From contig NZ_CP150629.1 in assembly GCF_038022665.1 (NCBI RefSeq), forward strand, positions 2,028,480 to 2,092,479: a stretch of DNA of 64,000 nucleotides, in the 5' to 3' direction. This document shows, piece after piece, positions 5,079-17,257 of the stretch; positions within the stretch are counted from its first letter, which is position 1, and each line of letters begins with the position of its first letter. A program made the translations under genes and the position numbers. The notes under the pieces were generated by a model. The model was not told the DNA's origin, searched no databases, and saw nothing but the letters and a program-made list of their open reading frames with translations. The DNA comes from Methanolobus sp. WCC4. Its GTDB lineage: Archaea; Halobacteriota; Methanosarcinia; Methanosarcinales; Methanosarcinaceae.

Positions 5079-8000
5079 ATGTTCAATAAAGACTGGAAAC
5101 TCAATTCAGAGATAACAGAAGTTATAAGCAGCTTTATGGAAGGGAACCATGATCCAAGGATCAGGACCCAATCAAAACAGCAGGATCAAAGAACTGCAGA
5201 TAGTATCAATCTTTTACTTGACGAATTTGCGAATTTAAAGAGCGAACTGGCTACAAAGAAGAACACCGGTGAAGAAATGAATTGTTCGCTCATCCTGAGT
5301 GAGGTATCCGCACTTGTTGAAGCAGCCACTGAAGGACGTCTTGATTCAAGGATACAGACCGAATCTTTTACCGGTGAGTCAAAAAAGATGTTCGAACTGC
5401 TCAATGAGCTTCTGGATACGATAATAGGACCACTGAATGTCTCTGCTGAATATATCGACCGTATTTCAAAAGGTGATATTCCCGAGAAGATAACGGATGA
5501 GTATAAAGGGGATTTCAATGAGATAAAGAACAACCTCAACCAGTGTATAGATGCGGTGAATGCACTTGTAGAGGACTCATTGATGCTATCAGAAGCAGGA
5601 GTGGCAGGTCAGCTTGACACAAGGGCAGATGCAGAAAAGCACAATGGGGATTTCAGAAGGGTTGTGGAAGGGGTCAACGACTGTCTGGACGCAGTGATAG
5701 GACCATTGAATGTAACGGCAGAATATGTGGACCGAATATCTAAAGGTGATATCCCGGAGAAGATAACAGATGATTACAACGGGGATTTCAACGAGATAAA
5801 GAACAACCTCAACCAGTGCATAGATGCAGTGAATGCACTTGTAGAGGACTCGTTGATGTTATCAGAGGCAGGGGTGGCAGGTCAGCTTGACACAAGAGCA
5901 GATACAGCAAAACACGCCGGTGATTTCAGAAGGGTTGTGGATGGGGTTAACGGTTGTCTGGATGCAGTGATAGGACCCCTGAACGTAACGGCAGAATATG
6001 TGGACCGAATATCAAAGGGTGACATCCCGGAGAAGATAACAGATGATTACAACGGGGATTTCAACGAGATAAAGAACAACCTCAACCAGTGCATAGATGC
6101 GGTAAATGCACTTGTAGAGGATTCCCTGATGTTATCTGAAGCAGGAGTGGCAGGATTACTTGACACAAGAGCAGATGCAGCAAAACACAGTGGAGATTTC
6201 AGAAGGGTTGTGGAAGGGGTGAACGACTGTCTGGATGCAGTGATAGGACCCCTGAACGTAACGGCAGAATATGTGGACCGTATCTCTAAAGGTGACATTC
6301 CTGAAAAGATAACAGATGATTACAACGGGGATTTCAATGAGATCAAGAACAATCTCAATCAGTGTATCGATTCCCTGAATGCCCTCCTTGGAGAGACAGA
6401 CAATCTTATAGATGCAGCAGTTGCAGGAAAACTTGCAACCAGAGGTGATGCAGGGATGTTCAACGGTAAATTTGCCGACCTTGTTTCCAATATCAACCTT
6501 GTCATCGACACCCTGGTAGGTCATATAGACCAGATCCCTGCTCCTTTCATGATAATCGACAACGACTTCAGTATCGCTTATATGAACAGAACAGGTGCCT
6601 CTGTTATCGGCAAGGAACCTGTGGAACTGATCGGCCAGAAATGTTACGATAATTTCAGGACATCCGACTGTAATACGGACAAATGTGCCTGCGGAAGAGC
6701 AATGAAGACCGGCAGAAGTGAATCCAGTGAGACCGATGCCCATCCCGGAGGCAAGGACCTTGTGATCGAGTACAATGGTGTTCCTATCAGGAACAGGAGT
6801 GGAGAGATAATCGGAGCACTTGAGATTGTAATGGATAAGACCGCAGAAAAAACAGCTCTGGAAGAAGCAGGCATAAAGGCAGACTACCTTGAGAAGGTGC
6901 CTACACCTGTAATGGTAGTTGACAAAGATTTCAATATCCAGTTCATGAATGGCGTTGGAGCAGCAGCTGTAGGAAGCACGCCTGAAGGATGTGTGGGTCA
7001 GAAATGTTTTGACCTGTTCAATACGGGACATTGTAATACGGAAAACTGCCAGGTTGCAAAGGCAATGAAGACAGATTCGATCTGTACGAATGATACTATC
7101 GCTAAACTGCCTTCCGGGGAACTTCCTATCAGATACTCGGGTGCTCCTCTGAAGAATGAGGATGGAGAGATCATTGGTGGTCTGGAATATGTCCTTGATA
7201 TCAGTAAGGAAATGGAGATCACAAAGGGAGTGCATGATCTTGTAGAGGCTGCAATTGCAGGCAGGCTGGATGAACGTGCAGATGCAAGCAGCTTTGAAGG
7301 CAACTACAGGCAGATCATAGAAGGCGTGAATGCAACTCTGGATTCTGTCATAGGCCCTCTTAATGTGGCTGCTGAATACATAGACCGCATATCGAAAGGT
7401 GACATACCCGAGAAGATCGCTGATGAATATCAGGGAGATTTCAATGAGATAAAGAACAATATCAACCAGTGCATCGATGCGGTGGACCTGCTTGTAAATG
7501 ATGCGGTGATGCTTGCCAATGCAGGTATTGAAGGAAAGCTCTCAACACGTGCCGACACAGAGAAACATAGTGGTGACTTCAGAAAGATAGTTGAAGGTGT
7601 GAACAATTGCCTTGATGCCATAGTTACACCAATAGAAGAGACTTCGAGGGTTATTGAAGAATACTCTTCAGGCAATCTTCACACAAGAGTTGAAATTGAG
7701 ACCAGAGGCGATCTCAGGAAACTGGCAGATACACTTAATGGCTTCGGCCAGGAACTGCAGGCGATCATTTCGGATTCAAATGCCGTGCTTGATGCAATTG
7801 CAAACAATGACCTTACCTGCCACTCCCGGATACAGGGAGCTGGTGAGTTCAGGAAATTCACCGATGGTGTTGAGAATTGTCGCAGGTCCCTGAACGATAT
7901 AGTCTCAACTGTAATGAAAGATGCACAGAACATTGCTGCAACTGCAGAGCAGATGTCAGGTTCATCAGCCGAGATAGCTACTTCTGCCAATGAGGTCTCA

Positions 8001-8918
8001 GCTACCGTTGAAGAGATATCCAGAGGAGCACAGGTTCAATCCTCCAAGTCAGAAGAGGTTGCAAGGACAATGGTCGATATGACACAATCGGTCCAGGAAG
8101 TGGCAGCTAATTCACAGAGGACAGCAGAGAGCTCTATTGCCTCAAATGAGCTGATACAGAACCTGGGGACTGTAGCCCAGAGTCTCCAGCAAAAGATGAA
8201 CGGCATAAAAAGTGCATCTGAGGAATCATCACAGCACATAAATGATCTTGCAGAGAAATCCAACCAGATCGGAGAGATCGTTCAACTTATCACAAATATA
8301 GCTGACCAGACAAACCTGCTTGCACTCAATGCTGCCATAGAGGCTGCAAGGGCAGGAGAACACGGACGTGGTTTTGCTGTTGTTGCAGATGAGGTCAGGA
8401 AACTTGCTGAGGATTCAGGAAATGCAGCAAAGCAGATCGCAACGCTCATTCATGCAATGCAGGAAGGTACTACCAATGCGGTCAGTTCAATGGAACAGGC
8501 CAGTTCAGAGGTAGCAACAGGTGCCCAGTCCCTTGATGAGGCCGTAGGTTCGATCGACAGTGTTGTAGAATCCGGGAACACTATCGTTAAAATGGTCCAG
8601 GAGATCGCTGCTGCTGCTGAACAGCAATCCGCCTCAATACAGGAGGTCACAGCCTCTATCGAAGAGGTATCCTCCATATCCGAGGAATCTGCTGCAGGTA
8701 CAGAGGAAGCTTCTGCAGCCGTTGAACAGCAGACAGCATCCATGCAGGAATTGACGGCTTCAGCACAGCAACTGGCAGATGTTGCATCAGAAATGCGCTC
8801 TGTTGTTTCTAAATTCAGGATAGACAATGGGAGTAGTGCATCAAGATCATCCCAGATATCAGCTTCCGAAGATGAGATGACAGAGAAAAAGATGCAATAT
8901 GGTACGTTAATTGTCTGA
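5079..8918 (+). CDS. Soluble methyl-accepting chemotaxis-like protein with poly-HAMP-type repeats and two Cys-rich PAS domains
   Basis: A 1279-residue protein with no signal peptide or transmembrane helix. Residues about 115-480 are tandem 91-residue units beginning around [20 protein letters not shown], which resemble consecutive HAMP-type coiled coils. Two PAS domains follow (about 487-600 and 610-715); the first has C-x8-C-x4-C-x-C and the second C-x8-C-x4-C, suggesting a metal, cluster or redox sensor. Further HAMP-like units precede a C-terminal MCP signalling domain with the conserved hairpin tip ([20 protein letters not shown]). Such proteins signal to CheA/CheW, none of which is in this window. 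The ATG at 5079 is preceded by GACGGGG. The cytoplasmic location and the Cys-PAS pair suggest sensing of an intracellular redox state; this is inference. Confidence 0.85.
5428..6519 (+). repeat. 273-bp in-frame tandem repeats within the chemoreceptor-like gene
   Basis: The same GAC codon context recurs at 5428, 5701, 5974 and 6247, exactly 273 bp (91 codons) apart. Adjacent copies are nearly identical at DNA level, including synonymous positions, while a diverged copy appears near 7350. This points to recent unequal duplication or gene conversion of a coiled-coil unit. Confidence 0.85.
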
Positions 8919-11194: not shown

Positions 11195-11970
11195 TATTAT
11201 CCGACCTCATCAAAGATACGGGGTCAGTTTTGACATTAAGCCAAGAGAGACCATTAAGGACAAATAGACCAGAAACAATGCAAATCCTTTCTTGAGTTCG
11301 AGATAAGTGCTATGATTCATATATTTCCCCAATACAATAAAGGACCTGGTCCTATAAATACATTCTTAATTATTGGGGCATAAATATAGAATAATTTTGC
11401 GAAGATGATTCTTTTTCACGTTGTTAACAAAGAATATCGTTATCCTTTGCGCTATTGTATACATGAAAAACATAGAATTATAAAAAAGACCGGGGTATTT
11501 AGCTCCATAATGACAATAACCCCTCAACAAACATGATCCCAATCCATGCTCATACTCCACTTCAAACATGAGACCAGAATACGGATGCAGATGTGCCTAA
11601 TTCATAGACAATATCTGAGGGGATGACAGATGAAACGAAATATCCGTGATTCAGGTCTCTGTTGTTATCGTTTTTATTTTACATGTTTGTTGAGTATGAA
11701 ATAGTACTTTTGTATACTATTTAAATATATCTACATGTGAATATATCATCATTATGATGAACTCTCCTATAAAACCGAGGATGATCTTTGATTTAAAAGT
11801 AATCCCGGAATTTTAATTAAATTCACATACTCCAGTAGTAGGAAATGTACTTCTTAGATGACAATACTTATATGTTTGTATTGCTATTGGAATAACTGGC
11901 ATCCCTGCAACCCCTACAATTCCCGTAATATATGCAGAAAACTGCTAAAAAAACAATCAGAGGAAATGAT
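11195..11970. other. Long AT-rich intergenic region with nested inverted repeats and one possible tiny ORF
   Basis: About 775 bp without a convincing gene. CCCCAATA (11327-11334) and TATTGGGG (11371-11378) enclose a second inverted repeat AGGACC-T-GGTCCT (11341-11353). A 24-codon ORF at 11630-11704, rich in Cys and Arg, has GAGGGGATGAC just upstream of its ATG but no recognisable identity. A TATA-like stretch (ACTATTTAAATATAT, about 11717-11731) could serve the gene at 11971. Confidence 0.4.
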
Positions 11971-13206
11971 ATGAAAAAAATAGACGAAACAATGAGTATA
12001 TACCAGATCATAAATGAATATCCATTTCTACTGAAAATATTCAAGCAGCACGGCATGGGTAAGTTCGAGAACAAGGATGTTCTTGACCAGCTTGGTCCTT
12101 TGCTCAAACTGAGAACCGCACTTTCAATGGTAGCAGTGAACAAGGATTCCTTTATCGAGCTTCTGAACCAGGCCATTGCGGACAATGAAGCAAATGGAGA
12201 CTTCACCCTTGCAGATTCCCCTGAAAGACAGAAAGAGCTGACCCTGCTTGCCCTATTACCATGCGGGATGAAGATGCCTTTCAACAGGGCTCTCAATGAA
12301 TTCTCCACCGAGTACAGCAAAGAGACAGGAAATGTACTGCATTCCCTTGTAGAAGGTAATGTGAACCATGAGATATCCTATTATGCGTATATGGATTCCG
12401 TCACCTCGGTTGAAGAACTGCCTGATATTATCATCAGTTCCGACATCAACAGTTTCTATCACAAACCATTCCAGGAGAATTTCCTCAATTATGAATATTT
12501 CACGGACCTTGGTGCCTCACCAATGAACAGTGACTTTGAGTCAATAGGTTTTGCAGACCCGCGAGGTCAGTTCACAATGCTCTCCGGAAATCTCCTTGTC
12601 CTTGTCACCATAGATGAGCTCATGGACGGACAGGTCACACCTACTTCATGGGAAGATGTACTGAAAGAGGATTTCCGTAACAAAGTGATCATGCGTGGAC
12701 AGAACGGCTTCTTCTGTAATGGCGTACTGATACCCTTCTACCAGTTATACGGAATGGATGGTATCAAGAAGCTTGCTTCATCCGTGTATGCCGGGTCCCA
12801 TCCTTCCGAGATGGTGAAGATGATCGACAGCAGGAAGGATGATGTCCCTCCAATGTACATAATGCCTCATTTCTTCGCCATGAAGATCAAGGATAAGTCC
12901 AGAGTAACTATTACCGTACCAAAAGAAGGTGCAATTGTAAGTCCGGTGCAGATGCTGGTAAAAAAGGAGGCTACCGAGAGAGTGAAGGGAATAACTGATT
13001 TCCTTTGTGGAAAGAAGTTCGGCGAGATATCAGCCAGAGCCTTCTTCCCCACAACCCATCCTGATGTACAGAACAAACTGGAGGACGTGGACTCGCTCTA
13101 CTGGCTGGGCTGGGACTTCCTGCTGGACACTGATATCGGTGCTCTCAAGAAGGAGATAGCAGAGGTGTTCAACAAGCAGTTCATGATAACCGGAGGTGTC
13201 GTTTGA
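11971..13206 (+). CDS. DUF1858 domain fused to ABC-type substrate-binding-protein-like fold, no signal peptide
   Basis: About 411 residues. The first 70 resemble the DUF1858 helical domain (TMSIYQIINEYPFLLKIFKQ, then HGMG), found at the N-terminus of ScdA-type and other redox proteins. The remainder resembles a Fe3+-type periplasmic binding protein (SSDINSFYHKPF, WEDVLKEDFRNKVIMRG), but there is no signal peptide or lipobox, so it should be cytoplasmic. The start at 11971 is chosen for its Shine-Dalgarno (CAGAGGAAATGAT). The stop overlaps the TTG start of the GTPase gene by four bases, and the ABC ATPase follows directly. A role in carrying a metal or cofactor inside the cell is inference. 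Confidence 0.75.
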   Translation: MKKIDETMSIYQIINEYPFLLKIFKQHGMGKFENKDVLDQLGPLLKLRTALSMVAVNKDSFIELLNQAIADNEANGDFTLADSPERQKELTLLALLPCGMKMPFNRALNEFSTEYSKETGNVLHSLVEGNVNHEISYYAYMDSVTSVEELPDIIISSDINSFYHKPFQENFLNYEYFTDLGASPMNSDFESIGFADPRGQFTMLSGNLLVLVTIDELMDGQVTPTSWEDVLKEDFRNKVIMRGQNGFFCNGVLIPFYQLYGMDGIKKLASSVYAGSHPSEMVKMIDSRKDDVPPMYIMPHFFAMKIKDKSRVTITVPKEGAIVSPVQMLVKKEATERVKGITDFLCGKKFGEISARAFFPTTHPDVQNKLEDVDSLYWLGWDFLLDTDIGALKKEIAEVFNKQFMITGGVV

Positions 13207-13898
13207 GGCTTGTTACCGTAGCAGGCCCACCGTCATCGGGAAAGACCAGCATAATCATCAGGACCATTGAGGAACTCAGGAGCAAGGGTCATACCGTAGG
13301 TGTTGTGAAGTTCGACTGCCTGTCCTCGCAGGATGAGGAAATGTATTCAGCTCACAATATACCTGTCAGGACCGGACTATCCGGAGGACTATGTCCCGAC
13401 CATTTCTTTGTAAGTAATATAGAAGAGGCCCTGAAATGGGCAGAGGAACGGAATTTCGACTACCTTATCACAGAGAGTGCCGGTCTTTGCAACCGCTGTT
13501 CCCCGCACATCAAGGATGTACTCGCTATATGTGTTATCGATAACCTCAGCGGTGTCAACACACCCAGGAAGATCGGTCCGATGCTTAAACTTGCAGACAT
13601 TGTAGTAATCACGAAAGGGGATATCGTCTCTCAGGCGGAACGCGAGGTTTTCGCATACCGTGTCAGGCAGGTCAACCCCGGCGGAATGATCGTGAATATC
13701 AACGGAGTTACAGGACAGGGGAGTTTCTATCTTGCAAAGTTCGTGGAGAAAAGCTCTGCTGTGGACACACTTCAGGGAGCAACACTTAGATTCACCATGC
13801 CCGGAGCCCTGTGTTCGTATTGCCTTGGTGAGAGGAAGATAGGTGATGACAGACAGATAGGCGTTTCAAAGCTTGTGAACTTCAGAGGAGATGATTGA
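13203..13898 (+). CDS. HypB/UreG/CobW-like GTPase with cysteine pairs
   Basis: A 231-residue SIMIBI-class P-loop GTPase: Walker A GPPSSGKTS near residue 8, a switch-like segment VKFDCLSSQDEE, and a VITKGD guanine-specificity motif. It has a C-x2-C (ESAGLCNRCSPH) and a C-terminal C-x2-C (GALCSYCLGERKIG), both suited to binding nickel, cobalt or zinc as in HypB and UreG. The TTG start at 13203 overlaps the previous stop (TTGA) and has a strong GGAGGTG upstream, so translation is coupled. Family class is clear; the metal and the client enzyme are unknown. Confidence 0.8.
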   Translation: MRLVTVAGPPSSGKTSIIIRTIEELRSKGHTVGVVKFDCLSSQDEEMYSAHNIPVRTGLSGGLCPDHFFVSNIEEALKWAEERNFDYLITESAGLCNRCSPHIKDVLAICVIDNLSGVNTPRKIGPMLKLADIVVITKGDIVSQAEREVFAYRVRQVNPGGMIVNINGVTGQGSFYLAKFVEKSSAVDTLQGATLRFTMPGALCSYCLGERKIGDDRQIGVSKLVNFRGDD

Positions 13899-14912
13899 TT
13901 GCGCAAAGAAATGCTTCATATGACCATAGGTGAGCTTATGGAAATGATGCCATGGATCGAGGATTATCTCTCATCGTTCTCCATGGACACCGAACAGTTC
14001 GGCAATATCAGACTGGAAGAACTTGAAGTAACTCCGGGAGAGGAATTCTTCGAGGAGAAAGGAAGCGACTATCATGCTTTCATAGACGGTCTCTTCATGT
14101 TCATAGAGCAGGTCAAAGCCCTTCAGCAGGAAAGCGTCTTCACGGTGGAATGCCTGACCATACTTCCCGGAAAGGACAAGAATGGCGATAAAGAGGTGTT
14201 CTCGGTCGAGCTGAAAAAGGGAGAGGTGACTGCGATAGTTGGTCCCACCGGATCTGGCAAATCCCGTCTCCTTGCCGATATAGAATCCCTTGCACAGAAT
14301 GATACCCCCACCGGACGCAGCATAATGGTCGATGGTCGCTTCCCGGATGATGAGGAACGATTCTCCACCGAGGGACGCTTTATAGCACAGCTCTCACAGA
14401 ACATGAACTTCGTCATGGATCTCAGTGTAGAGGATTTCCTGACACTTCACGCCGAGAGTCGTATGGTGGATGAGATATCCCACATAGTCCGAAAGATATA
14501 CGATACAGCGAATGTCCTTGCAGGTGAGCCTTTCAGCAGGGAGACCCCTGTAACACAACTTTCAGGAGGACAGTCAAGAGCCCTGATGATCGCAGACACA
14601 GCACTCCTGAGCCCCGCATCAGTTGTCCTGATAGACGAAATAGAGAACGCTGGTGTCGACAAGGTAAGGTCTCTGGAACTCCTGGTAAGCAATAACAAGA
14701 TAGTCCTCATCAGTACCCACGACCCTCTCCTGGCCCTCTCCGCAGACCAGCGAATTGTCATTAAGAACGGCGGTATATCAAAGCTCATGAAGACCACAGA
14801 TGATGAGAAAAAGCATCTGGAAAGTCTTGAGAAGATAGACAGGAAGATCACACAGCTCAGGGATCAGTTAAGAACCGGGGAAGAGATCGATCTGAGCGAA
14901 CTGCTGGTATAA
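13899..14912 (+). CDS. Orphan ABC transporter-type ATPase
   Basis: A 337-residue protein. The N-terminal about 100 residues are an extra acidic helical domain. The ABC domain follows: Walker A GPTGSGKS, Q-loop region (FIAQLSQNMNF), signature LSGGQSRAL, Walker B VVLIDE and H-loop STHD. It is a single-domain ATPase and no permease gene is nearby, so it is unlikely to be a normal importer. The TTG start at 13899 follows the GTPase stop directly, with GAGGAGATGA just upstream. It completes the three-gene operon and may act as a mechanochemical component of metal or cofactor insertion, which is inference. Confidence 0.8.
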   Translation: MRKEMLHMTIGELMEMMPWIEDYLSSFSMDTEQFGNIRLEELEVTPGEEFFEEKGSDYHAFIDGLFMFIEQVKALQQESVFTVECLTILPGKDKNGDKEVFSVELKKGEVTAIVGPTGSGKSRLLADIESLAQNDTPTGRSIMVDGRFPDDEERFSTEGRFIAQLSQNMNFVMDLSVEDFLTLHAESRMVDEISHIVRKIYDTANVLAGEPFSRETPVTQLSGGQSRALMIADTALLSPASVVLIDEIENAGVDKVRSLELLVSNNKIVLISTHDPLLALSADQRIVIKNGGISKLMKTTDDEKKHLESLEKIDRKITQLRDQLRTGEEIDLSELLV

Positions 14913-14993: not shown

Positions 14994-15179
14994 ATGACAT
15001 ATAAGTTAGCGTGTAAAGATACAGGAGTTAGTTGTCCTTTTGTTGCTCAGGGAGAGACCATTGATGAAATGATGGAAGTTGCTGTAAAGCATGCAAAAGA
15101 AGAACATGGCTATACTGATGAACAGATAAATGATCCTGAAACCCAAAAAATGATCAAAGCGGCGATTAAGCAAGAGTAA
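14994..15179 (+). CDS. DUF1059 family small protein
   Basis: A 61-residue protein matching DUF1059: MTYKLACKDTGVSCPFVAQG then a helical stretch ending in AAIKQE. It keeps the two conserved Cys residues (positions 7 and 14). GGGAGTG precedes the ATG. Family members are small, widespread and of unknown role. It lies 81 bp after the ABC ATPase and has its own AT-rich upstream region, so it is probably transcribed separately. Confidence 0.85.
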   Translation: MTYKLACKDTGVSCPFVAQGETIDEMMEVAVKHAKEEHGYTDEQINDPETQKMIKAAIKQE

Positions 15180-15317: not shown

Positions 15318-15599
15318 ATGGCAAAAAAGAAGAAAGATACAGATGAATTCGAATTACCCGATGATCAAAAAAAAGCCCTTGATGATTGGATAATGGCAAA
15401 TATACTGCCACAAAGAACACCAGAGAAACCTTACGCCAGTTATGCGCTTAAACTTCTTTTCGAGGAATCACCAGATGGTTTCTTCATCACAAATCCACAG
15501 TTTAAAGAAGCCATGCTAAGATGTGGATTTTCACCCGTAAATAAAAATAAACTGAATTGGGATTTCCGGGTTTCCATAACATCTCCAGAGTCGAAATGA
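15318..15599 (+). CDS. Hypothetical protein, possibly derived from a mobile element
   Basis: Ninety-three residues from the ATG at 15318; the frame is open further upstream but without a plausible start. It begins with a lysine-rich segment (MAKKKK) and has a compact helical core (YASYALKLLFEESPDGFFIT, then NPQFKEAMLRCGF). The pattern of the core reminds me of small DNA-binding domains in phage proteins, but I cannot name a family. No partner is evident; it lies between DUF1059 and hgcA. Confidence 0.55.
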   Translation: MAKKKKDTDEFELPDDQKKALDDWIMANILPQRTPEKPYASYALKLLFEESPDGFFITNPQFKEAMLRCGFSPVNKNKLNWDFRVSITSPESK

Positions 15600-15878
15600 T
15601 CGAAAATTATGGATCAGACAGATATTGAACCAGCTTATCTCATTGTCCATAATAAAGAGATCTTCTTTTAATGGAGAGTTTTTGGAGATAGGAACAACTT
15701 TAACAGACCTAAGTACCCGGCAAAGCTGGCACACTCCGAAAAGATGAAGTAAAAGTATTCATGGTCCTGAGTAAAGATCAATATCCCTTTTTAGATCAAC
15801 CAGATAGATATATATGTAACATCCTTGCATACTAGGTTTGTTCAAATATTTTTGAAACATCTTTCTGTAGGGAAGTAC

Positions 15879-16952
15879 ATGGACACTAAAAACAAAGATA
15901 TCTGCGATTCATCGGACACAAAAGCAGATACATCCCAGTTCATCACAATGATAGGTCTTGGTGATAGCCCTGCACCTGAGATACATGAGACCACAGGCAC
16001 TCTCACGTTCAGTGACCATCTGGACCACTTCCTTGCAAGATGGGGGTTCAGACGCTCAGAGCACATAGTAGAACCCGGTATCTACAAACTCGGTGATCCG
16101 GACCCTGATTCTCCGGTCTTCGTCTCAGCCAACTACACCCTCAGTTTCGATGCGCTCCGCAGTTCACTTGCAGGTATCGACTGCTATATCCTTGTCATAG
16201 ACACGAAAGGCATCAACGTCTGGTGTGCTGCCGGAAAAGGAACATTCGGGACCGACGAGATAGTCTGGCGTATCAAATGGTCAGGACTTGATAAGGTAGT
16301 GAACCATAGTAATCTGATATTGCCACAGCTCGGTGCTCCCGGTGTATCTGCACATGAGGTAAAACGTCGTTCGGGATTCAAGGTGGAATACGGGCCTGTC
16401 CGTGCAAAGGACCTGCCTGAATATCTCAGGAACCATACTGCAACACCTGAAATGAGAAAGGTCAGGTTCACCTTTTGGGACAGACTGGTGCTGACACCCA
16501 TAGAATTCGTCCATGTGGTAAAACCAACACTGGTGGCTGCCATTTTACTTTACCTGCTGTCCGGTCCCTTTGCAGCGTTCGCTGCGGTGGCCACAGCATT
16601 CTCAGGAACAGTACTGTTCCCTGTCCTCCTTCCATTCCTGCCTGCCCATGACCTCAGTGTCAAAGGGATCATCCTTGGATGGCTCACAGCGCTACCATTC
16701 GGAATAGTCCTTGCAGCCAACACACAACTGCCACTTTGGGAAGAGATCCTTGCACTGATATCCCTGTTCCTTATAATTCCGGCAGTTATAGGATTCCTTG
16801 CACTGAACTTCACAGGTTGCACTACCTATACGTCCAGAACCGGGGTGAAGAAAGAGATATTCAGGTATGTACCATATATGGCACTGAAAGCAGGTACTGG
16901 AACACTCTGCCTTGTAATTATTGGAGCCAGCCGTTTAATGGGGATGATCTGA
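15879..16952 (+). CDS. hgcA: Mercury-methylation corrinoid protein HgcA
   Basis: HgcA is a membrane-anchored corrinoid protein that transfers a methyl group to Hg(II), giving methylmercury. The 357-residue product has the corrinoid-binding domain with the diagnostic cap-helix motif N113-V-W-C116-A-A-G-K (in GINVWCAAGKG), where Cys116 is the expected lower-axial cobalt ligand. Residues about 205-355 form hydrophobic transmembrane segments (VKPTLVAAILLYLLSG and others), the known HgcA layout. The ATG at 15879 is chosen because AGGGAAG precedes it. Its stop overlaps the hgcB start by one base (TGATG), so the pair is translationally coupled. hgcAB occurs in some Methanolobus species. Confidence 0.95.
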   Translation: MDTKNKDICDSSDTKADTSQFITMIGLGDSPAPEIHETTGTLTFSDHLDHFLARWGFRRSEHIVEPGIYKLGDPDPDSPVFVSANYTLSFDALRSSLAGIDCYILVIDTKGINVWCAAGKGTFGTDEIVWRIKWSGLDKVVNHSNLILPQLGAPGVSAHEVKRRSGFKVEYGPVRAKDLPEYLRNHTATPEMRKVRFTFWDRLVLTPIEFVHVVKPTLVAAILLYLLSGPFAAFAAVATAFSGTVLFPVLLPFLPAHDLSVKGIILGWLTALPFGIVLAANTQLPLWEEILALISLFLIIPAVIGFLALNFTGCTTYTSRTGVKKEIFRYVPYMALKAGTGTLCLVIIGASRLMGMI

Positions 16953-17257
16953 TGTTCAATTCATACAAAGAGAATACACTTCAATACTATCCTGAGAAAT
17001 GCATCAACTGTCTCATGTGTACAAAAGTCTGCCCTCACGGGGTTTTCACTGAAGGGGAAAAAGGAAAGGGACATGTGGAACTCACAAGGCCAGAAAAATG
17101 CATGGAATGCGGAGCATGTGCCGGTAACTGTCCAGTAGAGGCTATCGAGGTCGAGAGTGGTGTAGGTTGTGCATGGGCTATGATCGGTGCAGCACTCAAA
17201 GGCAAGGATATGGATAGTGATGCAGTCTGCTGCGGAGAGGATGGATGTTGTCAGTGA
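16952..17257 (+). CDS. hgcB: Mercury-methylation ferredoxin HgcB
   Basis: HgcB is a 2[4Fe-4S] ferredoxin thought to reduce the HgcA corrinoid and to help deliver mercury. The 101-residue protein has two C-x2-C-x2-C-x3-C clusters (Cys17/20/23/27 and Cys50/53/56/60), the conserved extra Cys73 in GVGCAWA, and a C-terminal tail with two vicinal pairs (Cys93-94 and Cys99-100) that are expected to bind Hg(II). The start overlaps the hgcA stop and GGGGATGA lies just upstream. A longer frame extends 5' inside hgcA but is not the real start. All residues considered essential in characterised HgcB are present. Confidence 0.95.
   Translation: MFNSYKENTLQYYPEKCINCLMCTKVCPHGVFTEGEKGKGHVELTRPEKCMECGACAGNCPVEAIEVESGVGCAWAMIGAALKGKDMDSDAVCCGEDGCCQ

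Follow-up and report, generated by a model that had tools for sequence, protein, structure and literature searches.

Methanolobus sp. WCC4 carries, in a 64,000-nucleotide stretch of its 2.85 Mb single-contig genome (this whole stretch is the window below), a cassette of three tightly linked genes for a substrate-binding-protein-like (SBP-like) protein, a GTPase and an ATP-binding cassette (ABC) ATPase. We conclude that this trio probably forms a soluble three-protein metallochaperone machine for metal cofactor assembly, and that its client in the branch of the window is likely nitrogenase, through either cofactor or metal supply. Nitrogenase was named as client because of the GTPase tree, the gene neighbourhoods and the co-occurrence of NifD with the window branch. 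The three genes are as follows.

11971-13206, + strand: SBP-like gene (protein 1), ATG start, 411 amino acids; cytoplasmic protein with a ferric-binding-protein fold.
13203-13898, + strand: GTPase gene (protein 2), TTG start, 231 amino acids; G3E-type, HypB/UreG-like.
13899-14912, + strand: ABC ATPase gene (protein 3), TTG start, 337 amino acids; soluble.

An earlier note on this DNA had described the genes as tightly coupled, with two TTG starts and strong ribosome sites, and the sequence confirmed this description: the SBP-like and GTPase genes are joined by a TTGA overlap, the GTPase and ABC genes abut directly, and a purine-rich ribosome site stands ahead of each gene (AGAGGAAATGAT, GGAGGTGTCGT and AGAGGAGATGATTGA). 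The TTG start of the ABC gene is backed by the relative L039, which has an ATG at the same abutting position. No permease gene was found between or abutting the three window genes. The trio recurs over many phyla of anaerobes, at no fewer than 575 loci (a lower bound: at least 575), and its named neighbours in the search were Methanolobus and Methanosarcina, with 90-92% GTPase identity within the genus.

From the 575 relatives found in the scan we kept the 80 most similar to the query. A GTPase tree of 97 rows, in which these 80 loci were joined by the window, 15 additional loci and the second copy from L107, resolved a clade of 44 loci that we call Hcp-type (94 in the Shimodaira-Hasegawa-like approximate likelihood-ratio test, SH-aLRT). 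The rest of the group outside this clade, the window included, we call nif-type. In an 80-row tree, 30 nif-type rows grouped at 93/94 support, with the deeper order unsure. The nif-type set spans Methanobacteriota, Bacillota, Thermodesulfobacteriota, Myxococcota and Pseudomonadota, and is also present in Bacteroidota, Spirochaetota, Lentisphaerota and Deferribacterota, so its link with nif genes is not explained by inheritance in a single lineage.

Gene neighbourhoods separated the two types. Neighbours within 9 kb were counted over the 80-locus set, the Clostridiaceae loci and three second copies, with two Methanolobus loci included. Genes of the nif/mod group lay near 19/53 nif-type and 0/54 Hcp-type loci, while hcp, a CRP-type regulator or a small CxxC protein lay near 45/54 Hcp-type and 0/53 nif-type loci. 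An SBP homologue accompanied the GTPase at 53/54 Hcp-type and 45/53 nif-type loci, and the retention of the SBP-GTPase-ABC set across phyla is thus far beyond chance. The window and the remaining Methanolobus loci fall outside this count and had no nif/mod gene near them by similar labelling. Among representative nif-type neighbours, NCBIfam models identified NifB, NifD, NifK, NifH, NifV, NifX, ModE and ModA; the NifB neighbours were under the cut-off in both cases tested, and NifV was over it in one of two. As a separate observation, a DUF4213/DUF364 'heavy-metal chelation' protein adjoins nif-type cassettes at L069:9726-10484, L104:2763-3527 and L112:10760-11515, the latter two belonging to a sub-branch without NifD.

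We searched the 79 genomes behind the 80 loci for NifD (TIGR01282, E up to 1e-60) and found it in 34/36 nif-type genomes (28/36 over the curated cut-off) versus 8/43 Hcp-type genomes (Fisher test, 3e-12). To offset the bias of a sample picked by similarity, an even draw of 146 Clostridiaceae genomes was searched as well. Here NifD was present in 15 of the 16 nif-type genomes versus 26 of the 130 others (Fisher test, 8e-9), and in one of 11 Hcp-type genomes; NL151 and NL152 (G145 and G165, one with NifD and one without) were kept out of the 16. Among 60 Methanosarcinaceae genomes, NifD exceeded the cut-off in all six with the cassette versus 8/54 others (Fisher test, 6e-5), a co-occurrence that represents one genus. 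GTPase matches of about 1e-3 to 1e-8 in other genomes were taken as HypB/MeaB-type and excluded. A second search of nine genomes that combine NifD with an Hcp-type cassette showed an additional nif-type copy in three and two Hcp-type copies in a fourth, G098; five NifD genomes without a cassette were also searched again and still yielded none. The nif-type cassette was therefore close to confined to nitrogenase genomes in all three sets (34/36, 15/16 and 6/6), with three exceptions. The neighbourhood and co-occurrence check proposed in the earlier note, taken with the GTPase tree, points to nitrogenase as the client for the window branch.

Paralogues of the GTPase and ABC genes also occur in coenzyme M operons. 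At the Methanosarcinaceae loci L028-L032 and L035-L037, an ABC-GTPase pair and a PF04060 Fe-S protein lie between cysteate synthase and comDE; a more distantly related version of the pair occurs at L033 and L034. As in the trio, the GTPase (48-51% identity) and ABC genes stand side by side; unlike the trio, these loci have no recognised binding-protein gene, have the PF04060 protein instead, and cluster with cysteate synthase, comDE and an MMP16-like (COG1900) gene. In the GTPase tree the paralogues branch outside both types, and the window genome has no second GTPase of the coenzyme M type. The Fig. 2 legend of PMC12068725 lists an ATPase, a 'Ni2+ binding GTPase' and a COG2000 Fe-S protein as often co-located with coenzyme M biosynthesis, their role unknown, and the operon paralogues match the pair in that legend.

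These associations bear on a rival explanation in which the trio is a general machine for Fe-S cluster assembly or repair, working as SufC does with SufB/D, or in nitrosative-stress repair, with Hcp, nitrogenase and coenzyme M synthase as abundant Fe-S clients. The hcp, CRP-family and small CxxC neighbours of Hcp-type cassettes (the 45/54 loci above) favour it, as does the position of the coenzyme M paralogue beside the PF04060 Fe-S protein and the COG1900/MMP16-like gene. However, the cassette has no SufB/D-like scaffold, and the window branch is tied to NifD far more closely than would be expected from a general role. Hcp is near-universal in the sampled families (present in 142/146 Clostridiaceae genomes, and over the cut-off in 43/60 Methanosarcinaceae genomes) and discriminates nothing; we dropped its co-occurrence as evidence and counted adjacency alone. 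SufC does resemble protein 3 as an ABC ATPase for cofactor assembly without a permease, and M. jannaschii SmsC is among the structural matches of protein 3, but the similarity is that of ABC proteins generally, the trio has no SufB/D partner, and protein 3 has an N-terminal domain of its own. We consider a general Fe-S role unlikely, while giving it some weight.

Two observations on Hcp-type features stand apart from these counts. In many Hcp-type cassettes a protein of about 81 amino acids with two CxxC pairs follows the ABC gene directly (L061:10709-10951 and 23 other loci); its Pfam matches are sub-threshold only, one of them to HypA. At L025:4644-6263 (G046, same genus as the window), hcp lies divergently upstream of a nif-type cassette, the sole nif-type locus seen with an adjoining hcp; this neighbour falls outside the 53- and 54-locus counts.

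Protein 2 belongs to the class of metallochaperone GTPases. It matched the Pfam cobW/HypB/UreG family PF02492 at 53.5 bits (cut-off 20.7, E 3e-14), HypB and UreG were among its closest solved structures, and the GxPxxGK[TS] P-loop of G3E GTPases was present in 124/124 classified sequences. According to PMC9164220, G3E GTPases are marked by a Glu in place of Asp in their G3 motif; in protein 2 this residue is E91, invariant in 54 aligned sequences. Its cysteines are at 39, 64, 96, 99, 110, 204 and 207, and its motifs are CPDH (C64 to H67), ESAGLCNRC (E91, C96, C99) and a C-terminal C204-x2-C207. The two C-x2-C pairs pointed out in the earlier note are thus real (96/99 and 204/207), and CPDH and AGxCxRC were kept in 127/127 sequences of the GTPase tree. 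The guanine motif is TKxD in place of the usual NKxD (120/124 with TK, one with NK). The HypB-like label given previously holds at the level of the HypB/UreG class, though protein 2 falls below the HypB equivalog cut-off (TIGR00073, 53.9 bits versus 121.2) and that of UreG (TIGR00101, 37.3 bits versus 204.2), and the CxCC metal motif of COG0523 is absent from it. What it shares with HypB and UreG is the cobW/HypB/UreG fold, the Glu in G3, a Cys-Pro-x-His-type site between the switches and a Cys near G3, positions that we take to correspond to the metal ligands of HypB and UreG themselves; it departs from them in its scores, the extra CxxC pairs, TKxD and its partner genes. A third, distant GTPase branch was also seen in L151 and L152 (Clostridiaceae G145 and G165), with CPDH and AGxCxRC kept and TKxD absent.

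Protein 1 combines an import-type fold with a cytoplasmic location. Its Pfam matches were SBP_bac_6 (4e-62) and, over residues 4-62, DUF1858 (PF08984; 2e-11, 44.2 bits versus a cut-off of 32.2). The AlphaFold2 model (predicted local distance difference test, pLDDT, 88.3) has the FbpA/FutA ferric-binding-protein fold (Foldseek; VIA Z 22.1, root-mean-square deviation 3.1, 282 residues). The Tyr-Tyr pair of the Campylobacter jejuni ferric-binding protein (1y4t), which we take to be its iron ligands, is matched in the alignment by Phe301-Phe302, and P97-C98, D196, W227 and H277 are among the residues invariant in 43 sequences. Protein 1 therefore shares its fold with FbpA, FutA and HitA of ABC importers but differs from them in being cytoplasmic, in having Phe-Phe rather than Tyr-Tyr, in its extra DUF1858 domain and in having no permease. 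The window protein has no hydrophobic N-terminus. By a threshold on N-terminal hydrophobicity, none of 77 SBP sequences, the window included, was credibly exported; two exceeded the threshold and were both read as over-long start calls, and export controls from the same loci exceeded it in 13/13 cases for ModA and 11/12 for BtuF-type proteins. The earlier statement that the substrate-binding-protein fold lacks a signal peptide was borne out, but the redox flavour it ascribed to DUF1858 was not. Residues 1-70 of the window protein hold no Cys, CxxC was found in the DUF1858 domain of 0/60 SBPs of this length, the NCBIfam redox-disulfide model TIGR03980 reached 15.7 bits against a cut-off of 44.95, and a redox role for the domain was rejected.

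Another explanation is that the trio belongs to an importer, in which proteins 1 and 3 would drive or prime a FecCD-type permease to take up molybdate or an iron-chelate. Within 9 kb, FecCD-type permeases occurred at 10/53 nif-type and 1/54 Hcp-type loci (11/107 in total), BtuF-like genes at 15/53 and ModA at 9/53 nif-type loci, and L183 holds the trio together with nifH, a nifA-like regulator and TonB-receptor-like, FecE-like and BtuF-like genes. The FecCD and BtuF-like neighbours make the connection with metal uptake real, even for a trio that is itself no pump. Yet none of the 77 SBP sequences has a signal sequence, a nearby permease is absent from most loci, the window among them, the inspected permease systems own exported binding proteins and an ATPase (the FecCD permeases of L069 and L183, inspected closely, have an ATPase of their own), and protein 3 bears an additional N-terminal domain and can occur fused to the GTPase. 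The earlier note had named a conserved permease or an exported form of the first protein in close relatives as refuting its proposal. With no credibly exported relative and no permease belonging to the cassette, an importer was rejected as the principal explanation and is improbable. The proposal of an intracellular metal or cofactor machine rather than a transporter survived in its non-importer part, to which the metallochaperone class of the GTPase also speaks, and lost its redox component.

Protein 3 was confirmed as an ABC ATPase (Pfam ABC_tran, 9e-16), in line with the earlier description of an ATPase without a permease. Its catalytic motifs are intact (Walker A GPTGSGKS, LSGGQSRALM, IDEIENAG and H274) and invariant in 49 sequences, and a fold search with its model (pLDDT 89.9) returned generic ABC ATPases only. 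Its N-terminal residues, about 1-80, and the DUF1858 domain at the start of protein 1 are homologous by hhalign (97.1%, E 6e-11); direct DUF1858 matches were found in 10/24 members and were weak (best E 0.006), and a PDB search with this domain by itself gave nothing convincing (best E 0.04). The shared DUF1858-type N-domain may act as a docking module. In Clostridium puniceum (L099:3310-4836), a 508-residue fusion protein has the GTPase (228 residues) in place of the ABC N-domain, followed by ABC residues 91-333, and L180:7074-8561 (G275) has the same GTPase-ABC layout in one frame. L099 and L180 are sister tips, indicating a single fusion event.

A conserved block precedes the cassette.

11841-11882, + strand: GGAA-N6-TTCT (11841-11854) and TATA-like CTTATATG (about 11867-11874) block; promoter-proximal, conserved.

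GGAA-N6-TTC[T/C] was found upstream of the cassette in 9/9 Methanolobus/Methanosarcinaceae loci scanned, against 0.13 expected per upstream region from mono-shuffles. The GGAA and TTC columns are invariant and N6 is variable, and the whole block is conserved in seven aligned loci. This operator-like element, together with a ligand-binding fold retained in the cytoplasm, is consistent with a sensor of nitrogen or metal status, in which the fold senses a ligand and the two nucleoside triphosphatases (NTPases) regulate nitrogenase and do not build it. The conserved CPDH/CxxC sites instead resemble those of metal-delivery G3E GTPases, and the linked genes (nifB, nifV, nifX, mod) build the cofactor or supply metal; we hold a sensor to be very improbable. 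GGAA-N6-TTCC is presumably the NrpR operator. Control of the cassette by NrpR was unsupported, as the 400 nt before nifH in the window genome hold no site within one mismatch.

Several observations weigh against nitrogenase as the client. The absence of a GGAA-N6-TTCT-like element from those 400 nt is one, and the cassette lies about 1.1 Mb from nifD (959507-961048) in the window genome. NifD is missing from two of the 36 nif-type genomes (L104 and L112, sister tips) and from one of the 16 nif-type Clostridiaceae genomes (G265), and the Fisher tests ignore relatedness. The nif-type is whatever falls outside the Hcp-type clade and has weak support as a clade of its own. Of the 19 nif/mod neighbourhoods, those of L174 and L177 hold nitrogenase-like genes only, at 23-28% identity, with the L177 genes below cut-offs. 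The FecCD permeases near nif-type loci count on the same side, and the Hcp-type cassettes without nif genes and the coenzyme M-linked paralogue show that nitrogenase is not the sole client of the family. The nif-type cassette is also absent from 26/41 NifD-bearing Clostridiaceae and 8/14 NifD-bearing Methanosarcinaceae genomes; with so many NifD genomes lacking it, the cassette is at most accessory. In the Clostridiaceae locus L177 (13272-18789), the nif-type trio is followed by cysteine synthase and three nitrogenase-like genes below cut-off.

Downstream of the cassette lie the following neighbours.

14994-15179, + strand: CxDxxxxCP protein, 61 amino acids, from translation; cassette membership not implied.
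15318-15599, + strand: conserved small protein (MAKKKKDTDEFELPDD...); in L025 its counterpart, at 85% identity, immediately follows the ABC gene.
15825-17257, + strand: hgcA (15825-16952) and hgcB (from about 16952), mercury methylation; HgcA 445.5 bits (cut-off 275), HgcB 109 bits (cut-off 99).

The 61-residue protein resembles what we take to be DUF1059, and the protein at 15318-15599 had no Pfam match. Both hgcA and hgcB look intact, and hgcA has the NVWCAAGK motif. A further explanation takes HgcA, the corrinoid protein of mercury methylation whose gene lies directly downstream, as the client that the trio matures or regenerates in Methanolobus. Besides the window, six Methanolobus loci (L023, L024, L026, L027, L038 and L039) have hgcA after the cassette, and HgcA was found in 6/6 Methanosarcinaceae cassette genomes versus 6/54 others (Fisher test, 2e-5). 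These six genomes are, however, all of one genus, the adjacency is seen only in Methanolobus, and across phyla HgcA was found in 10/33 nif-type genomes (L038, Methanolobus, included) and 3/17 Hcp-type genomes among the 50/79 searched, with cassette types that agree with the 97-row tree. Methanosarcina spelaei has the cassette without HgcA, and in G046 (L025) hgcA is about 20 kb from the cassette. HgcA was rejected as client, for which we see hardly any likelihood, and the hgcAB adjacency is treated as local neighbourhood. Elsewhere in the window, 5079-8918 encodes a chemoreceptor-like protein of 1279 residues in which a nearly identical segment is repeated about five times.

A metallochaperone relay serving nitrogenase could work as follows. 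The binding-protein fold would capture molybdenum, iron or a carboxylate complex, as metal or metal-chelate; the ABC protein, dimerising in an ATP-driven step, would load or unload this fold through the shared docking domains; and the GTPase would take the metal on its CPDH/CxxC sites and hand it to the cofactor assembly site under GTP control. We infer the metal identity, the order of hand-over and the docking surfaces. NifQ, a single small protein, is the Mo donor for the nitrogenase cofactor, and its likeness to the trio is one of proposed role, as an accessory in nitrogenase metal supply. A bolder and rather doubtful extension makes the nif-type trio the machine by which many anaerobic diazotrophs deliver molybdenum (or molybdenum-homocitrate), an ATP/GTP-driven soluble relay in the supposed role of NifQ, with sister machines for Hcp and coenzyme M synthase. 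The cytoplasmic ferric-binding-protein fold would then carry a metal-carboxylate complex, and the family would represent a new and general class of systems for cofactor insertion, each with two NTPases and assembled from importer parts moved into the cytoplasm.

The consulted parts of the HcpR work (PMC1274295, PMC12915319) and of the CODH/HCP context work (PMC13056359) do not mention the trio. A search limited to open-licence literature found no title or abstract on the SBP-GTPase-ABC trio or its nitrogenase link, so its novelty is unproven. For strict anaerobes, little is known of the route by which metals and homocitrate arrive at the nitrogenase cofactor, and a three-gene set nearly confined to nitrogenase genomes offers a short, testable list of missing helpers. 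The nif gene sets of anaerobes are also a resource for engineering nitrogen fixation. The trio further provides a family-wide frame for the ATPase/GTPase pair left unexplained in the figure legend of the 2025 coenzyme M study (PMC12068725), and presents an import-type binding fold retained in the cytoplasm beside two NTPases.

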